64,000 bases of DNA from Actinomycetota bacterium (GTDB lineage: Bacteria > Actinomycetota > Thermoleophilia > Solirubrobacterales > 70-9): the NCBI GenBank assembly GCA_018268675.1, contig JAFDWB010000090.1, positions 1-64,000 on the forward strand, given 5' to 3'. The translations under genes were made by a program, and so were the position numbers. Below, piece after piece: positions 14,644-57,578 of the stretch (position 1 is the stretch's first letter; each line of letters opens with the position of its first letter). Below the pieces are notes generated by a model that searched no databases, was not told where the DNA came from, and worked only from the letters and a program-made list of their open reading frames with translations.

Positions 14644-14686
14644 GCGTTCGCACTTATCCACAACTGTTGTGGATAAGTGCGAACGC
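14644..14686. repeat. 43-bp palindrome containing two inverted DnaA-box-like 9-mers
   Basis: Perfect 21-bp arms around a single central T. Each arm contains TTATCCACA (14654-14662 and, inverted, 14668-14676), the classic DnaA-box consensus. The outer GTTCGCACTT part recurs in palindromes at 22149 and 57443. It lies 15 bp after the stop of the MBL hydrolase, so it could equally serve as its terminator. Confidence 0.75.
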
Positions 14687-17530: not shown

Positions 17531-17589
17531 TTGCGGCTTCCCCCGGGGCGAGGGGGGACTGAACGAAGCCCCACCCGGCTTGGGTGGGG

Positions 17590-18132
17590 ATGACGGGACG
17601 CGGGAGCATCGCCCTGCTGCTGATCGCTGCGGCGATCCTCCTGCGCCCGTGGGACCGGGACCCGATCCGACGCTTGTTACCCCATGGGGAACAAGCGTCG
17701 GCGGTGGGGGCGTCGGAGCGGCTGCGGGGACGGGTGGAGCGGGCCGTGGACGGCGACACGCTGGAAGTGGCGCTCGCCCGCGGGGGGACGGAGACGGTGC
17801 GGGTGATCGGCGTCGACACGCCGGAGACGGTGAAGCCGGACACGCCGGTCCAGTGCTTCGGGCCGCGGGCGTCGGCCTTCGAGCACCGGACCGTCGAAGG
17901 GCGGCGGGTGCGCCTCCTGACCGGGGTCGAACCGCGCGACTTCTACGGGCGGTTGCTCGCCTACGTCTGGGTCGAGGGACGCCCGCGCGAGCGCTTCCTC
18001 GAGGACGAACTGCTCCGCCGCGGCCTCGCCCGCACGCTCACCTTTCACCCGAACGACCGTTTCGCGGCCCGCTTCGAAACACTTGAGCAAAAAGCAGCGA
18101 CTGCCGGCAAAGGGCTCTGGAATGCGTGTTAA
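17590..18132 (+). CDS. Thermonuclease-like (SNase) secreted or anchored nuclease
   Basis: 180 aa. The N-terminal hydrophobic segment RGSIALLLIAAAILL is a signal peptide or anchor. The SNase OB-fold begins LRGRVERAVDGDTLEV, with active-site residues in VRVIGVDTPETV and RDFYGRLLAYVWV and a C-terminal helix GLARTLTFHPNDRF. It hydrolyses nucleic acids outside the membrane. Between signal and domain an inverted repeat is translated in frame (IRRLLPHGEQAS). ATG at 17590 is preferred over GTG at 17584. It follows the aldolase by about 60 bp. Confidence 0.88.
   Translation: MTGRGSIALLLIAAAILLRPWDRDPIRRLLPHGEQASAVGASERLRGRVERAVDGDTLEVALARGGTETVRVIGVDTPETVKPDTPVQCFGPRASAFEHRTVEGRRVRLLTGVEPRDFYGRLLAYVWVEGRPRERFLEDELLRRGLARTLTFHPNDRFAARFETLEQKAATAGKGLWNAC
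17667..17701. repeat. Inverted repeat inside the nuclease gene
   Basis: CCGACGCTTGTT (17667-17678) and AACAAGCGTCGG (17690-17701) flank CCCC-AT-GGGG, giving a near-perfect 35-bp palindrome with one bulged base. It is translated in the linker between signal peptide and nuclease domain, where extra residues are tolerated. Confidence 0.8.
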
Positions 18133-20768: not shown

Positions 20769-20805
20769 GGGCCGAAAACCGCTCTATATCAGCGGTTTTC
20801 GGCCC
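20769..20805. terminator. Bidirectional terminator, 15-bp perfect stem
   Basis: GGGCCGAAAACCGCT-CTATATC-AGCGGTTTTCGGCCC between convergent genes. The A4/T4 tracts inside the stem and the perfect symmetry suit termination in both directions. It also belongs to the class of long palindromes common in this window. Confidence 0.65.
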
Positions 20806-20806
20806 G

Positions 20807-22984
20807 TCAACGGGAGGGGGTCTTGGGGACTTCGCGCAGGGGGGCGTTGGCGGTGGTGCAGGCGAGCCGGAGCGGGCCGGTGACCTGCCAGACCGTGACC
20901 GGGCCTTCGCGGAAGAGCGGATGCACGCCACCGGCGCCGCGCAGCCAGCGGGCCTCCGGCGAGGGGATCGGGCTGCCGGGGTGGATGAAGTTGAGGAACG
21001 GCGAGGTGACCAGGTAGTTGATTTCGGCGGCGTTCACGGCGGCGCGGAAGCCGCCGCAGGTGGGGATCGCGTTGAAGGCGCCGTGGGGCCCGGTTTCGCC
21101 CAGGTAGATCACCCGGTTGGAGAGGTCGGGACCGTAGAAGCCGTAGCCGGCGAAGCCCGCGGTCGTCCCGGCCAGCCCGATCCGCGCGCCGGTGACGCCG
21201 CGCGCCCAGCGGTAGGCCTTGTCGAGGCTCATGCCGGGGATCGAGGTTTCGGCGGTGAGGTTGGCGAAGCGGTGGTTCAGGTAGTGGCGCTGGACCGGGT
21301 AGCCCAGCCCCACCGCCGCCACTGCCACCGCCGCGAGCGCGGCGGCCACGAGCCGCCCCGACAGGCCGTCGCGACGGGCGAGCCAGATCAGCGTCGGCAC
21401 CGCGACGAAGACGATCACGAAGGCGAGCGCGAAGACGCGGGCCTTGTCGTGGAGGGCCTGGTCGGGACGATCGGTGATCAGGTAGGTGAGGACGAGCGCC
21501 GCGATGAGTCCCCACTGGCGCTTCGGCCCGTCGAGGAGGCGCGGCAGCGGGACCAGGACGAGCGCGACGAGGAGCGCCGGGATGACGAAGCGGACGTTGA
21601 TCGCGAAGCCGACCGGTTCGCCCTCTGCCCCCGCCGCCCCCAGCGGCGTGACGAGGTAGGCGACCAGGCCGAGCAGCGCGACCCCGCCGAGCCAGCGGAC
21701 CAGCTTGTCGCGGCCGGAGAAGATCGCCAGCAGGCAGGCCGCGACGGCGGCGAGGAGCACCAGCGGCCAGAGCACCCCGAAGGCGTCGTGCAGGCCGGGG
21801 GCGAAGTACTGGCGCCAGATCCCGGTGTCGGTGGCGTAGTGGAGGATGTTGAAGTCGGGGCGGCCTTCCTGCAGGCGTTCCGGGTGGGGCAGGGAGATCG
21901 GCCCGAGCTTCGTCACCTCGGGCAACGGGTTGCCGGCGACGATCAGGTTGCGCAGGTACCAGTAACCGCCACCGACGAGCGCCGGGACGAACCACCAGCC
22001 CGCCGCCTTCCAGCGCCTGCCCGAGGGCGCCAGCACGAGGACCGCGACGCTGAGCGCCCCGGCCATCGCCAGCGCCGTCACCTTCGTGCCCGCCGCCAGC
22101 CCGACCGCGAGCCCCGCCGCCGCCAACGGCCACCCGTAGAGCGCGCGCGTTCGCACTTCTCCGCGTATACCGCGGCTTTCTGCGAACTCATCCGCGGGCT
22201 GGGCGTTCCAGGACTCGACCAGGATCGCGATCCCGGCGAGGAGGAGGCTCGCGGCCATCAGGTCGTTCTTGGCGGCGCCCGGCTCGCGCACGACGAGGGT
22301 GTGGCAGCCGGCGACGATCGCCGCCGCGATCACGGCCGGGACACCGCGCCCGTAGGGCCGCCCGACGCAGTAGGCGGCGAGGAAGGCGACCGCGAGCCAG
22401 CCGAAGTTGACGAAGAGGCTGAGCGTGTCGCGGCCGATCAGGAGGAAGCCGATCGCGTGGAGGAGCTCCGAGTTCTGCGGATAGAACCAGTTGACGAACA
22501 CGGTTTCGATGTGGTGCATCCCGGTCGTCGAGTGCGACTGGACCATGTCGGCGGAGAACGGCATGTGGTACCAGAGCGAGTCGAAGTTGAAGATCCCCGC
22601 GTCGAGGGCGTGCTTCGCCGTCACCGCCCAGTCGAAGACGACGATCGCGACCACGGCGATCGCGACCAGCGAGGCCCCGAGGCCGGGATCGACACCGCGC
22701 GCCGTCTGGCCGCCGCCGTGGCTGGTCGGGACCCACCGGACCGCGAGCGCGACGGCGAGGGCGGCGAGGATCAGCCACCCCGCGTAGAGCGCTCCGAACG
22801 TCCCCAGGGTCTCGCCGAGGACGGTCAGCACCCCGAACCCGACCACCCCCTCGACCAGGCGCGCCGGCGCGCCCCGCCAGCCCGGCAGCAGGCGCTCCCG
22901 CAGCGCCCAGGCGGCGTACCCGAGGGCGGCCGCGAGGACGGCGAGCTGGGCGGCCCCCAGGAGGTAGGAGCCGAGGCTAGGCAC
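20807..22984 (-). CDS. Large polytopic membrane protein, glycosyltransferase-like
   Basis: 725 aa from GTG with about 13-15 membrane helices. The loop after the first helices contains FNFDSLWYHMPF and VFVNWFYPQNSE, an acidic-aromatic loop typical of GT-C enzymes (GT39/GT83), which move sugars from polyprenyl-phosphate carriers outside the membrane. A periplasmic C-terminal domain follows (IGLAGTTAGFAGYGFYG). No family name is certain. About residues 265-277 an in-frame palindrome inserts AESRGIRGEVR in a cytoplasmic loop. Last gene of the mfd-surA-eno-divIC string, 6 bp after divIC. Confidence 0.7.
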   Translation of the reverse strand: MPSLGSYLLGAAQLAVLAAALGYAAWALRERLLPGWRGAPARLVEGVVGFGVLTVLGETLGTFGALYAGWLILAALAVALAVRWVPTSHGGGQTARGVDPGLGASLVAIAVVAIVVFDWAVTAKHALDAGIFNFDSLWYHMPFSADMVQSHSTTGMHHIETVFVNWFYPQNSELLHAIGFLLIGRDTLSLFVNFGWLAVAFLAAYCVGRPYGRGVPAVIAAAIVAGCHTLVVREPGAAKNDLMAASLLLAGIAILVESWNAQPADEFAESRGIRGEVRTRALYGWPLAAAGLAVGLAAGTKVTALAMAGALSVAVLVLAPSGRRWKAAGWWFVPALVGGGYWYLRNLIVAGNPLPEVTKLGPISLPHPERLQEGRPDFNILHYATDTGIWRQYFAPGLHDAFGVLWPLVLLAAVAACLLAIFSGRDKLVRWLGGVALLGLVAYLVTPLGAAGAEGEPVGFAINVRFVIPALLVALVLVPLPRLLDGPKRQWGLIAALVLTYLITDRPDQALHDKARVFALAFVIVFVAVPTLIWLARRDGLSGRLVAAALAAVAVAAVGLGYPVQRHYLNHRFANLTAETSIPGMSLDKAYRWARGVTGARIGLAGTTAGFAGYGFYGPDLSNRVIYLGETGPHGAFNAIPTCGGFRAAVNAAEINYLVTSPFLNFIHPGSPIPSPEARWLRGAGGVHPLFREGPVTVWQVTGPLRLACTTANAPLREVPKTPSR
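22149..22187. repeat. Imperfect palindrome inside the large membrane-protein gene
   Basis: Outer arms GTTCGCA / TGCGAAC and inner arms CCGCG / CGCGG around TATAC. Both sides resemble the intergenic palindrome at 57443 (GAGTTCGCAGAAA and GTTCGCA.TT.TCC), so it is a copy of the same element translated in frame. Confidence 0.65.
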
Positions 22985-33433: not shown

Positions 33434-33483
33434 GGCCGTCTCGGCCACGACCCTGGCGGGCTGTGGCCGTGGCCGAGACGGCC
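33434..33483. repeat. Inverted repeat, 16-bp perfect arms
   Basis: GGCCGTCTCGGCCACG and CGTGGCCGAGACGGCC around an 18-nt loop, 34 bp after the ABC1-kinase stop. It could terminate that transcript, though no T-run follows. Confidence 0.7.
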
Positions 33484-33653
33484 GGGTCTGTGGGGAGAGG
33501 AAGGGCCCGCACGGCGCGCAGGAACACACGGCCCGGTGGGGACGGGACGCCGGGTGTGGAGGACGGGTCGCGAGAGCGGGACGGGAGTGGGCACGGGTCC
33601 GTCCCGAGGTGGGCCCACATGACGAAGACGTCGAGAAGGCCGGGACCTTGTCC

Positions 33654-33781
33654 TCGTCCGGGAGGACGCCCTCCGTCCAGCTGTTCCTTATGGCGCCCTG
33701 GCGACCATAAGGAACAGCTGGACGGGGTCGGGCCAGGAACGGGGAGGTCCGTCACTGTTCCTCCCGTCTTCTTCAGACGCT
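33654..33781. repeat. About 128-bp dispersed intergenic repeat, copy 2, with a central hairpin
   Basis: Same layout as 14480-14606: CGTCCAGCTGTTCCTTATGG / CCATAAGGAACAGCTGGACG arms of 20 bp (33674-33693 and 33705-33724, 11-nt loop), then GGAGGTCCGTCAC and TTCCTCCCGTCTTC. Arms remain perfectly paired although the loops differ between copies, which indicates selection or gene conversion on pairing. Confidence 0.75.
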
Positions 33782-33785
33782 TGAC

Positions 33786-33837
33786 ACGCGCTGCAAGGAT
33801 TCAGGTCGCTATAGCGACCTGAATCCTTGCAGCGCGT
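33786..33837. repeat. Perfect 52-bp palindrome without loop
   Basis: 26-bp arms meeting at GCTATAGC, beginning ACGCGCTGCAAGGATTC. With no unpaired loop it is a candidate cruciform or a two-fold protein-binding site rather than an ordinary RNA hairpin. Confidence 0.85.
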
Positions 33838-33958
33838 CCCGTGGTCTCGGTCCCGGGCCTTCACGGGCGCTCCTCTCACAAAGGACGGTCACGGAAAGGA
33901 CGATCACGGGAGTCCGACTTTGTGACAACCCTGAGGCCGCTCCCCCACGGACCCCTCA

Positions 33959-34018
33959 CGTCCTGGGCGTCTCATGGCGGCCACAGCCTGCCTGGGTCGC
34001 CATGAGACGCCCAGGACG
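33959..34018. repeat. Inverted repeat, 21-bp perfect arms
   Basis: Left arm starts CGTCCTGGGCGTCTC, right arm ends GACGCCCAGGACG, with an 18-nt loop. It is intergenic and unrelated in sequence to its neighbours. Confidence 0.8.
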
Positions 34019-34076
34019 CAACTCGGACGGCCACCCGCGCCCCGAACCTCGTCGTCCTTTCCCCTCCTCGCCCCAC

Positions 34077-34117
34077 AGCTGTTCCTTATGCCGACCAGTC
34101 CGGCAAAAGGAACAGCT
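34077..34117. repeat. Third AGCTGTTCCTTATG-family palindrome
   Basis: AGCTGTTCCTTATGCCG and CGGCAAAAGGAACAGCT pair with one mismatch around a 7-nt loop. It shares the core of the copies at 14501 and 33674 but not their flanks. The right arm runs into the gdpD stop codon, so it may also serve as its terminator. Confidence 0.7.
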
Positions 34118-37919: not shown

Positions 37920-37992
37920 TTCCGGGGGAAGGACTCGAACCCTCTCTTCCAGGACCAAAACCTGGCGTGCTGGCCGATTACACCACCCCGGA
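37920..37992 (-). tRNA. tRNA-Gln (TTG)
   Basis: 73-nt cloverleaf with acceptor TCCGGGG/CCCCGGA, anticodon arm CCAGG-TTTTGGT-CCTGG giving UUG, T-arm GAGGG-TTCGAGT-CCTTC with one G-U pair. CCA is not encoded. Confidence 0.96.
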
Positions 37993-38023
37993 GCGGGCCC
38001 GCAGCGTAGCGCCGCGGGCGAAC

Positions 38024-41196: not shown

Positions 41197-41268
41197 GCGG
41201 GGGTGTCGTGACACCCTCCGGACGCGCCTTCGGCGCTGAGTGTCCGGAGGGTGTCACGACACCCCCGC
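41197..41268. repeat. 72-bp palindrome covering the ispE stop codon and the dedA/pap2 leader
   Basis: Perfect 27-bp arms (41197-41223 and 41242-41268; outer part GCGGGGGTGTCGTGACACC) with an 18-nt loop that holds GCGCCTTCGGCGC. Each arm also contains the small palindrome GTGTCGTGACAC. The right arm encodes the last ispE codons and its TGA. It may terminate or attenuate transcription before dedA/pap2. Confidence 0.85.
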
Positions 41269-42147
41269 CAAGCAGACGATCGCGTCATTGCGGTCGAGGG
41301 AGGTGGTTGCTGCCTCGGCTTCGGAAAGGGTTGGGAACAAGGCGACCGCGGTCGGGCCGGAGCCGCTCAGGAAGACGGCGGGGGCTCCGGTATCGCGGAG
41401 GGCGGCGAGGGCGGTGGCGATGTCGGGGCGGAGGCTGATCGCGGCGGGCTCGAGGTCGTTGATCAAGAGGTCGGCGTAGGCGAGGGGCGAGGCGCCTGCG
41501 CCGGCGGCGGTGCGCAGGCGGCCGGCGATCTCCTCCAGCTCCTCCGGGTCCCGGCCGAGCCCCAGCCGGTCGGCCTCGGCGAAGACCGCCGCGGTCGAGA
41601 GCCCGCCGCCCGAGGGCAGCAGCACCGCCGCGTGCTCCGCGGGCGCCGGCAACGGCTCGACCCGCTCCCCCGCCCCCCGGACCAACGCCAGCCCCGGCCG
41701 CAGCTGCGAAGGCACGTCCGCCCCCAACTCCGCCGCAAGCGCCGAAAGCCCGGCAACACCTACCGTCACGGCTGAAGCATTTTGGTTGTCAGGGGACCAA
41801 AATGCTTCAGCCGGGAAGGTGGTGGCGGGGGACGCGAGGCGCAGGACGGCGGCGGCGTCGGCCGAGCCGCCGCCGAGGCCCGCGGCGACCGGGGTGCGCT
41901 TCTCGATCTCGATCCGCAGCGGCGGCGCGTCCCAGCCGCGCTCGCGGAGCTTCGCCAGTGCCCGGGCGGCGAGGTTCTCGCCCTCGACCCCCGGGCAGAC
42001 GACCTCGTCGCGCTCCGCCTCCTCGACCCGCAGCAGGTCGGCCAGCGCCAGCGGCTCGAAGAGCGAGCACAGCTCGTGCAGGCCGTCGGGGCGAGGGCCG
42101 CCGAGGTAGAGGCCGAGGTTCAGCTTCGCGGGGGCGCGGACCAGCAT
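41254..42147 (-). CDS. ispE: 4-diphosphocytidyl-2-C-methyl-D-erythritol kinase
   Basis: 297 aa. GHMP kinase of the MEP isoprenoid pathway: APAKLNLGLYLGGPRPDG, the ATP loop PVAAGLGGGSADAAAVLRL and the C-terminal VFLSGSGPTAVALFP. Between AAVLRL and LSALAAELGADVP about 16 residues more than usual are present; they are encoded by a 43-bp palindrome (AEAFWSPDNQNASA). The C-terminal codons and stop come from a second palindrome. Last housekeeping gene of metG-tatD-rsmA-ispE. No clear ribosome site before the ATG. Confidence 0.93.
   Translation of the reverse strand: MLVRAPAKLNLGLYLGGPRPDGLHELCSLFEPLALADLLRVEEAERDEVVCPGVEGENLAARALAKLRERGWDAPPLRIEIEKRTPVAAGLGGGSADAAAVLRLASPATTFPAEAFWSPDNQNASAVTVGVAGLSALAAELGADVPSQLRPGLALVRGAGERVEPLPAPAEHAAVLLPSGGGLSTAAVFAEADRLGLGRDPEELEEIAGRLRTAAGAGASPLAYADLLINDLEPAAISLRPDIATALAALRDTGAPAVFLSGSGPTAVALFPTLSEAEAATTSLDRNDAIVCLAGVS
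41770..41812. repeat. 43-bp palindrome translated in frame inside ispE
   Basis: GGCTGAAGCATTTTGGT (41770-41786) and ACCAAAATGCTTCAGCC (41796-41812), perfect 17-bp arms, 9-nt loop. AT content is much higher than in the surrounding ispE sequence, which marks it as an insertion. Confidence 0.85.
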
Positions 42148-57442: not shown

Positions 57443-57489
57443 GTGAGTTCGCAGAAACCCACACATAGCGTGGATAACTGCGAACTCAC
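57443..57489. repeat. GTTCGCA-family palindrome
   Basis: GTGAGTTCGCAG and CTGCGAACTCAC (12-bp arms) with an inner CCAC/GTGG stem. One side carries TTATCCAC, as in the DnaA-box-like element at 14644, and the other side GAGTTCGCAGAAA, as in the in-gene copy at 22149. Confidence 0.75.
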
Positions 57490-57535: not shown

Positions 57536-57578
57536 GCGGTCGTCCTGACCCGCGCTATAAGTGGGTTAGGACGACCGC
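57536..57578. repeat. Inverted repeat, 16-bp arms with one mismatch
   Basis: GCGGTCGTCCTGACCC and GGGTTAGGACGACCGC around an 11-nt loop (GCGCTATAAGT). A separate TGCGGTCGTCCT lies 30 bp upstream, suggesting partial duplication. Confidence 0.7.

Follow-up and report, generated by a model that had tools for sequence, protein, structure and literature searches.

A palindromic repeat inside a membrane-protein gene

The window analyzed here comprises 64,000 nucleotides of contig JAFDWB010000090.1 (assembly GCA_018268675.1) from an uncultured soil bacterium of the Solirubrobacterales, the host genome (G000). A gene on its minus strand (20807–22984), encoding a 725-aa membrane protein, contains a short palindrome belonging to a repeat family that we call F1. 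The 39-bp dyad, GTTCGCACTTCTCCGCGTATACCGCGGCTTTCTGCGAAC, is located at 22149–22187 and is translated as part of the protein (...DEFAESRGIRGEVRTRALYGW...). Its translation within a membrane-protein gene was already proposed in a first-pass annotation of the window, together with the similarity of both its sides to a palindrome near position 57443. Both statements proved correct: GAGTTCGCAGAAA occurs at 22177–22189 on the minus and at 57445–57457 on the plus strand, and the second side conforms to GTTCGCA.TT.TCC. The annotation understated the length of the element; its strict unit of 43 bp occupies 22147–22189 (minus strand, in-frame EFAESRGIRGEVRT) and scores 58.5 bits against the family model.

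Two more F1 copies were found in the window with the dyad pattern and the family model. The copy used for comparison in the annotation (57445–57487) is intergenic, with convergent genes on either side. The third, which the annotation overlooked, is an intergenic perfect palindrome (dyad 14646–14684, strict unit 14644–14686). Its core holds TTATCCACA, which we take to resemble a DnaA box, plus the complement of this sequence.

The protein encoded by the interrupted gene has no Pfam or NCBIfam match. It was modelled with AlphaFold2 from 22 sequences (mean predicted local distance difference test score, pLDDT, 79.7), and the model resembles GT-C glycosyltransferases (STT3/OST, AftA, AftB). A structure search with it returned STT3/OST and AftA at E ~3e-4 with TM-scores near 0.4, so that the protein is probably a GT-C glycosyltransferase. 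In the model the F1 insert corresponds to the low-pLDDT segment 265–278 between the helices 239–259 and 285–300, which agrees with the loop position predicted in the annotation. Orthologs or paralogs are present in 44 of 50 genomes of the family; the named relatives come from metagenome-assembled genomes of Solirubrobacterales, e.g., 70-9, SZAS-9, SZAS-14, SZAS-15 and RYN_247.

F1 is a dispersed family with conserved arms and variable cores

The 13-mer shared by the two copies is weak evidence by itself, since at least three matches with at most two mismatches arose in 17 of 100 shuffled windows. The dyad GTTCGCA-N10..40-TGCGAAC is a different matter: it occurs three times in the window and not once in 100 dinucleotide-preserving shuffles. 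A genome-wide search, suggested in the annotation as a check, revealed 134 exact dyads in the host genome and none with the reversed control pattern. Thus, the outcome that the annotation had named as fatal to its proposal, a similarity no better than that of random GTTCGCA dyads, did not arise.

To describe the family, a covariance model was built from 18 copies, the one at 22149–22187 included. In their alignment 88.9% of the cells pair, and two-sided changes number 20 against a shuffled mean of 11.1. Among 132 fetched copies the dyad is 39 bp long in 126, 38 bp in five and 40 bp in one. Outside the arms, position -2 is G (frequency 1.00, rounded) and position -1 is A or C (0.99), followed outward by T, G, G, C and C with falling conservation. 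Because the two bases outside each arm are nearly invariant, we define the strict unit as GMGTTCGCA-N25-TGCGAACKC (43 bp); CGGTG/CACCG flanks usually extend the hairpin to about 51 bp. DNA folding supports a nested and stable hairpin.

The cores fall into the types CCGCG, CCACA/CTACA and CGTCG. Just inside the arm the two halves are often unequal (CTT with GTT in 39 and CTT with GAA in 32 of 126 copies), so that many hairpins are mismatched internally and have a polarity. Close pairs of copies, with spacings of 58–60 or 71–74 bp, number ten. It should be mentioned that such pairs, e.g., at L061, L079, L112, L127 and L140, often join one CCGCG-core and one CCACA/CTACA-core copy at about 59 or 71 bp, like composite dimers of repetitive extragenic palindromic (REP) sequences.

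F1 with its outer bases was found in six of 399 sampled genomes of the class, the host genome included; five of them belong to the same genus and one to another genus of the family. This sample left out two F1-rich congeners, G003 and G011. Within the genus F1 is amplified in some species (G000, G008, G011 and G003) and lacking in others (G002, G004, G005, G007 and G009).

As a rule, F1 copies lie just downstream of genes. Of the 132 fetched copies 65 are located between convergent, 53 between tandem and 11 between divergent genes, two at contig edges and one, that at 22149–22187, inside a called gene. One copy in 132 is far from a uniform distribution (the coding fraction of the window is 0.88), and the excess of convergent over divergent positions is highly significant (p ~5e-10). 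Read on the strand that carries the 22149–22187 half first, and in the frame used there, only 38 of 126 copies contain no stop codon. The copy at 22149–22187 is one of these, and therefore one that could be tolerated.

The loop is empty or differently filled in related genomes

We compared this loop among orthologs. In G003, G006 and G007 the gene is exactly 13 codons (39 nt) shorter at this place; these are the empty sites in relatives for which the annotation had proposed to look. The orthologs of G008 and G011 contain F1 with other cores in the same peptide frame of the family. Other palindromes occupy the loop in G005, G009, G004 and G002, and none is present in G001 and G010. The arms of the loop palindromes of G005, G009 and G004, the three genomes (G002 not among them) covered by this search, have 10, 3 and 9 pattern matches in their own genomes, nearly all 43 bp long; one of the nine in G004 is 35 bp long and has no typical core. 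Besides, a second palindrome of G002 and two of G005 lie, by coordinates and with the frame unchecked, between matched pieces of paralogs of the protein. Runs of N within the G011 contigs L042, L154 and L217 limit the comparison; that in L042 falls in the ortholog itself.

The protein tree joins G008 and G011 as sisters (support 99/98), and over its 14 rows the fewest changes are four for occupancy and six for palindrome family. A single ancestral insertion for all loop copies of F1 was considered and rejected in the form of one clade of the G000, G008 and G011 copies (approximately unbiased, AU, test, p 0.010); one gain followed by two losses could also account for them.

Shared F1 places have unrelated cores

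Another empty site, in this case of the host genome itself, lies at 38014–38022, beside a tRNA gene (37920–37992), where cross-species alignment revealed an F1 copy in both G008 and G011. The left junction is identical in these two at 21 of 21 bases, and G000 and G006 are empty (net difference 48–58 bp). The G008 and G011 cores at this site match at only 7 of 25 positions, and each matches a copy from its own genome at 23.

The same picture emerged wherever both species have F1 and the flanks are usable. For G000/G008 the cores match on average at 14.3 of 25 positions versus 14.7 in random pairs (seven pairs), for G008/G011 at 11.3 versus 12.7 (six pairs), and for G000/G011 at 14.5 versus 12.5, where two pairs were used (p 0.18). 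The best match of a core within its own genome averages 24.0 positions in G000, 22.1 in G008 and 22.7 in G011. Starting from G000, F1 was found in both genomes at 7 of 9 places in G008, 4 of 6 in G011 and 2 of 14 in G006; from G011, at 6 of 7 in G008, 3 of 7 in G000 and 0 of 6 in G006; from G008, at 7 of 15 in G000, 7 of 8 in G011 and 0 of 7 in G006; and from G006, at one of two in G000.

One G008 copy, at L212:6244–6304, has a peculiar structure: the palindrome runs symmetrically into its flanks (CCAGCGGG...CCCGCTGG), with a match to the sister G011 on the left side alone, as if it had grown by a copy of one flank.

Other palindromes and other invaded genes

F1 is not the only palindrome family in this genome. 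Among 449,411 bases, consisting of the window and the neighbourhoods of F1 copies and hence no random sample, we counted 282 palindromes, 42 of them in called genes. They form about 10 recurrent families, nearly all intergenic, plus a few clusters of ordinary coding symmetry. The window contains 20 palindromes, whereas three block shuffles gave 3.0 on average.

A second invaded gene of the window is ispE, for 4-diphosphocytidyl-2-C-methyl-D-erythritol (CDP-ME) kinase (41254–42147, minus strand; below the curated equivalog cut-offs, with GHMP kinase domains above theirs). It carries on the same strand an in-frame palindrome of a non-F1 family at 41769–41813. At this site G011 and G008 have F1 instead, and G006 has a less symmetric version of the G000 palindrome.

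The palindrome scan located further elements. In the nuclease gene at 17584–18132 a CGACGCTTGT-family palindrome (17667–17701, plus strand) precedes the SNase domain, and the G006 ortholog is 30 nt shorter there. A GGGCCGAAAACC-family palindrome lies just past the 3' end of the membrane-protein gene (20769–20805), where G006 and G011 have the same family with other cores and G003 is empty. A 43-bp palindrome of the GCGGTCGTC family is located at 57536–57578, about 50 bp from the F1 copy at 57445. Five palindromes from several families cluster between convergent genes at 33434–34117 (33434, 33673, 33786, 33959 and 34077); that at 33786–33837 is a perfect 52-bp palindrome.

Genes of G006 that contain in-frame palindromes match a class I tRNA synthetase, a GT87 protein, a GntR-like protein and a nucleotidyltransferase; the palindrome in the class I aminoacyl-tRNA synthetase gene (L237:15773) is a 49-bp in-frame member of the CTGTTCCTTATG family. 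Although the palindromes at L001:1585, L004:1920, L148:2209 and others differ in their arms (GGCCGTCTCGG, CGTCCYGGGCG), they have in common an interior similar to CACAGCCTGCCAGG, and it looks as though cores were exchanged among families. Two sets of candidates were discarded: coding palindromes that align without indels between species (e.g., window 18690, 19537 and 54443), which represent ordinary codon symmetry and no elements, and three in-gene candidates of a loose-threshold scan (L072, L074 and L085), whose coding scores near zero make them intergenic.

Relation to known repeats

REP palindromes are usually explained by the action of REP-associated tyrosine transposases (RAYTs). In the genus studied here, the Y1/RAYT transposase (Y1_Tnp, PF01797) was found in none of 12 genomes, the host genome included, while the control search was positive in 5 of 14 known genomes. 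Rfam revealed only tRNAs in the window.

In other respects F1 is like the tagged REPs, as far as these are characterized in the relevant parts of PMC3733652: both are short high-copy palindromes, mostly between convergent or tandem genes near 3' ends, with dimers, a minority in frame inside genes and stem and loop types that vary by species. That account also has intragenic REPs on record, among them different REPs at about the same recB site in two Xanthomonas species. F1 has no GTAG or CGTC tag left unpaired at the base of its hairpin; its outer bases GGTGM stand on both sides and are mostly paired. CGTC REPs likewise have no dedicated transposase in the description given there (PMC3733652), while the fixed 43-bp length of several of our families is unlike the REPs that it covers. 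Untagged REP-like families are listed in the same source for M. tuberculosis, D. radiodurans, Bordetella, Brucella and cyanobacteria; going by these descriptions and not by sequence, they share with F1 a palindromic structure, dispersal and lack of a terminal tag. The word Actinobacteria does not occur in PMC3733652, and in the open-licence literature that we searched such repeats are not described for Solirubrobacterales or Thermoleophilia.

The in-frame insertion with empty orthologs recalls, by trait and not by sequence, the Rickettsia palindromic elements (RPEs), which in the partial accounts considered here also occur in frame in protein genes and in several families per genome. RPEs are longer than F1 and belong to an obligate intracellular lineage, whereas F1 copies are almost all intergenic. 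Palindromes in the coding DNA of nematomorph mitochondria, for which template switching was proposed, also form hairpins with arms kept complementary (PMC6649704). The sections of that paper devoted to them present no dispersed family with common arms, in contrast to F1; besides, F1 cores match other genomic copies, and switching from arm to arm within one hairpin cannot give such matches. Thus, with its 134 copies, 131 of 132 outside called genes, its position near 3' ends and its close pairs, F1 is a REP-like kind of repeat that has neither the tag nor an accompanying RAYT gene.

Discussion

F1 is dispersed, is biased to intergenic positions and 3' ends, has empty sites, and stands in frame in two protein genes (the membrane protein here and ispE in relatives); in other species of the genus the same loop contains other palindromes. 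In our opinion F1 is probably an untagged REP-like element that enters a gene from time to time and has its core rewritten afterwards. The annotation had deduced mobility from the presence of one family between and inside genes. Judging from sequence comparison, mobility on an evolutionary scale is indeed supported, and more strongly than by that argument, by the empty sites at the loop and beside the tRNA gene and by the patchy range among congeners; the position inside a gene is an exception, and neither recent movement nor a transposase was found.

The unrelated cores could instead result from repeated insertion at favoured sites. A trans-acting enzyme would then insert each species' own palindrome again and again at a few tolerant or preferred sites (the loop, ispE, 3' gaps), and differences in cores would need no rewriting. 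We give this explanation somewhat less than an even chance. It agrees with a loop that holds different palindromes in different species and requires at least six changes of family, with an ispE site occupied by F1 in G008 and G011 but by one other family in G000 and G006, and with loop copies of G000, G008 and G011 that form no single clade. The sisters G008 and G011 argue against it: on contigs not chosen for F1 they share three of three F1 places, one with an identical left junction, yet the cores are unrelated. For this pair we lean towards cores rewritten in place rather than the same gaps hit again. A more general proposal, that hairpin positions are inherited and inner sequences rewritten from copies throughout the genome (concerted core evolution with the 9-bp arms as anchors), also inside genes including ispE, is one that we make tentatively and consider rather doubtful. 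Several points weigh against rewriting and against an inserting element. On contigs not chosen for F1, G011 and G000 share only one place in four, and some G008 stretches were fetched around F1 copies, which inflates the number of shared places. Junctions are shared to the base in one of ten compared pairs, one of which aligned in the wrong orientation, and therefore most shared places are the same intergenic interval only. Some non-F1 pairs keep their core across species (window 39373 and L212; L216:13616 and L213). No exact target duplication, such as a miniature inverted-repeat transposable element (MITE) would leave, was resolved at junctions with flanks only ~75–95% identical, genes were called with a home-made codon-usage caller, and no mobiliser was identified in a search aimed at Y1_Tnp.

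Three other explanations fare worse. F1 could be a bidirectional terminator or mRNA-end hairpin, selected at 3' ends and spread by conversion instead of transposition. Its stable hairpins and strong convergent and 3' bias are what this would predict, but the G+C-rich hairpin with a T-run that defines an intrinsic terminator was not found: no T-run adjoins the stem, and the share of T does not exceed 13% from flank position -15 to -6. Moreover, the copy within the open reading frame would terminate the very gene in which it lies, arms and length are conserved far beyond the needs of a terminator, and F1 is absent from several congeners and from 393 of 399 class genomes; we regard this function as improbable. 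A site for a nucleoid or DnaA-like protein might account for the conserved outer arms and for cores with TTATCCACA on both strands (window 14646). It would hardly account for cores that retain their pairing but are entirely different from one subfamily or species to the next, nor for the CCGCG- or CGTCG-core subfamilies without a TTATCCACA-type box, and appears very unlikely. The last alternative, a chance dyad or a native stretch of the protein that is palindromic by coincidence, has in its favour only the weakness of the 13-mer by itself. It is refuted by the dyad controls with none expected, the exact 13-codon gap in three orthologs and the peptide frame shared with G011 and G008, which leave it a negligible probability.

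If F1 is an untagged REP-like element, its copies would insert as hairpin-forming single strands by means of a trans-acting enzyme other than a Y1/RAYT transposase. Insertions into genes would be retained only if they leave the frame open and add their peptide to a tolerant loop, and the same loops would therefore be hit or kept repeatedly. After insertion the conserved arms may allow overwriting of the core from other genomic copies, through ectopic template switching or conversion; core types would thereby become common within each species even at inherited positions.

Such repeats come and go inside genes, reshaping protein loops. Intragenic REPs are already on record; the differently filled loop and the turnover of cores are the parts likely to surprise a specialist. 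This genus, in which REP-like palindromes number in the hundreds, each genome has several families of them and no Y1 enzyme was detected, is a place to seek another mobiliser. The empty and differently filled loops of orthologs make it testable how untagged palindromes spread and whether their homogeneity is due to transposition or conversion, and they also serve as natural experiments in which working proteins are extended by a dozen or more residues. If cores are indeed rewritten, this process would give rise to new loop peptides throughout the proteome in a coordinated way, with the insertion itself staying where it is.
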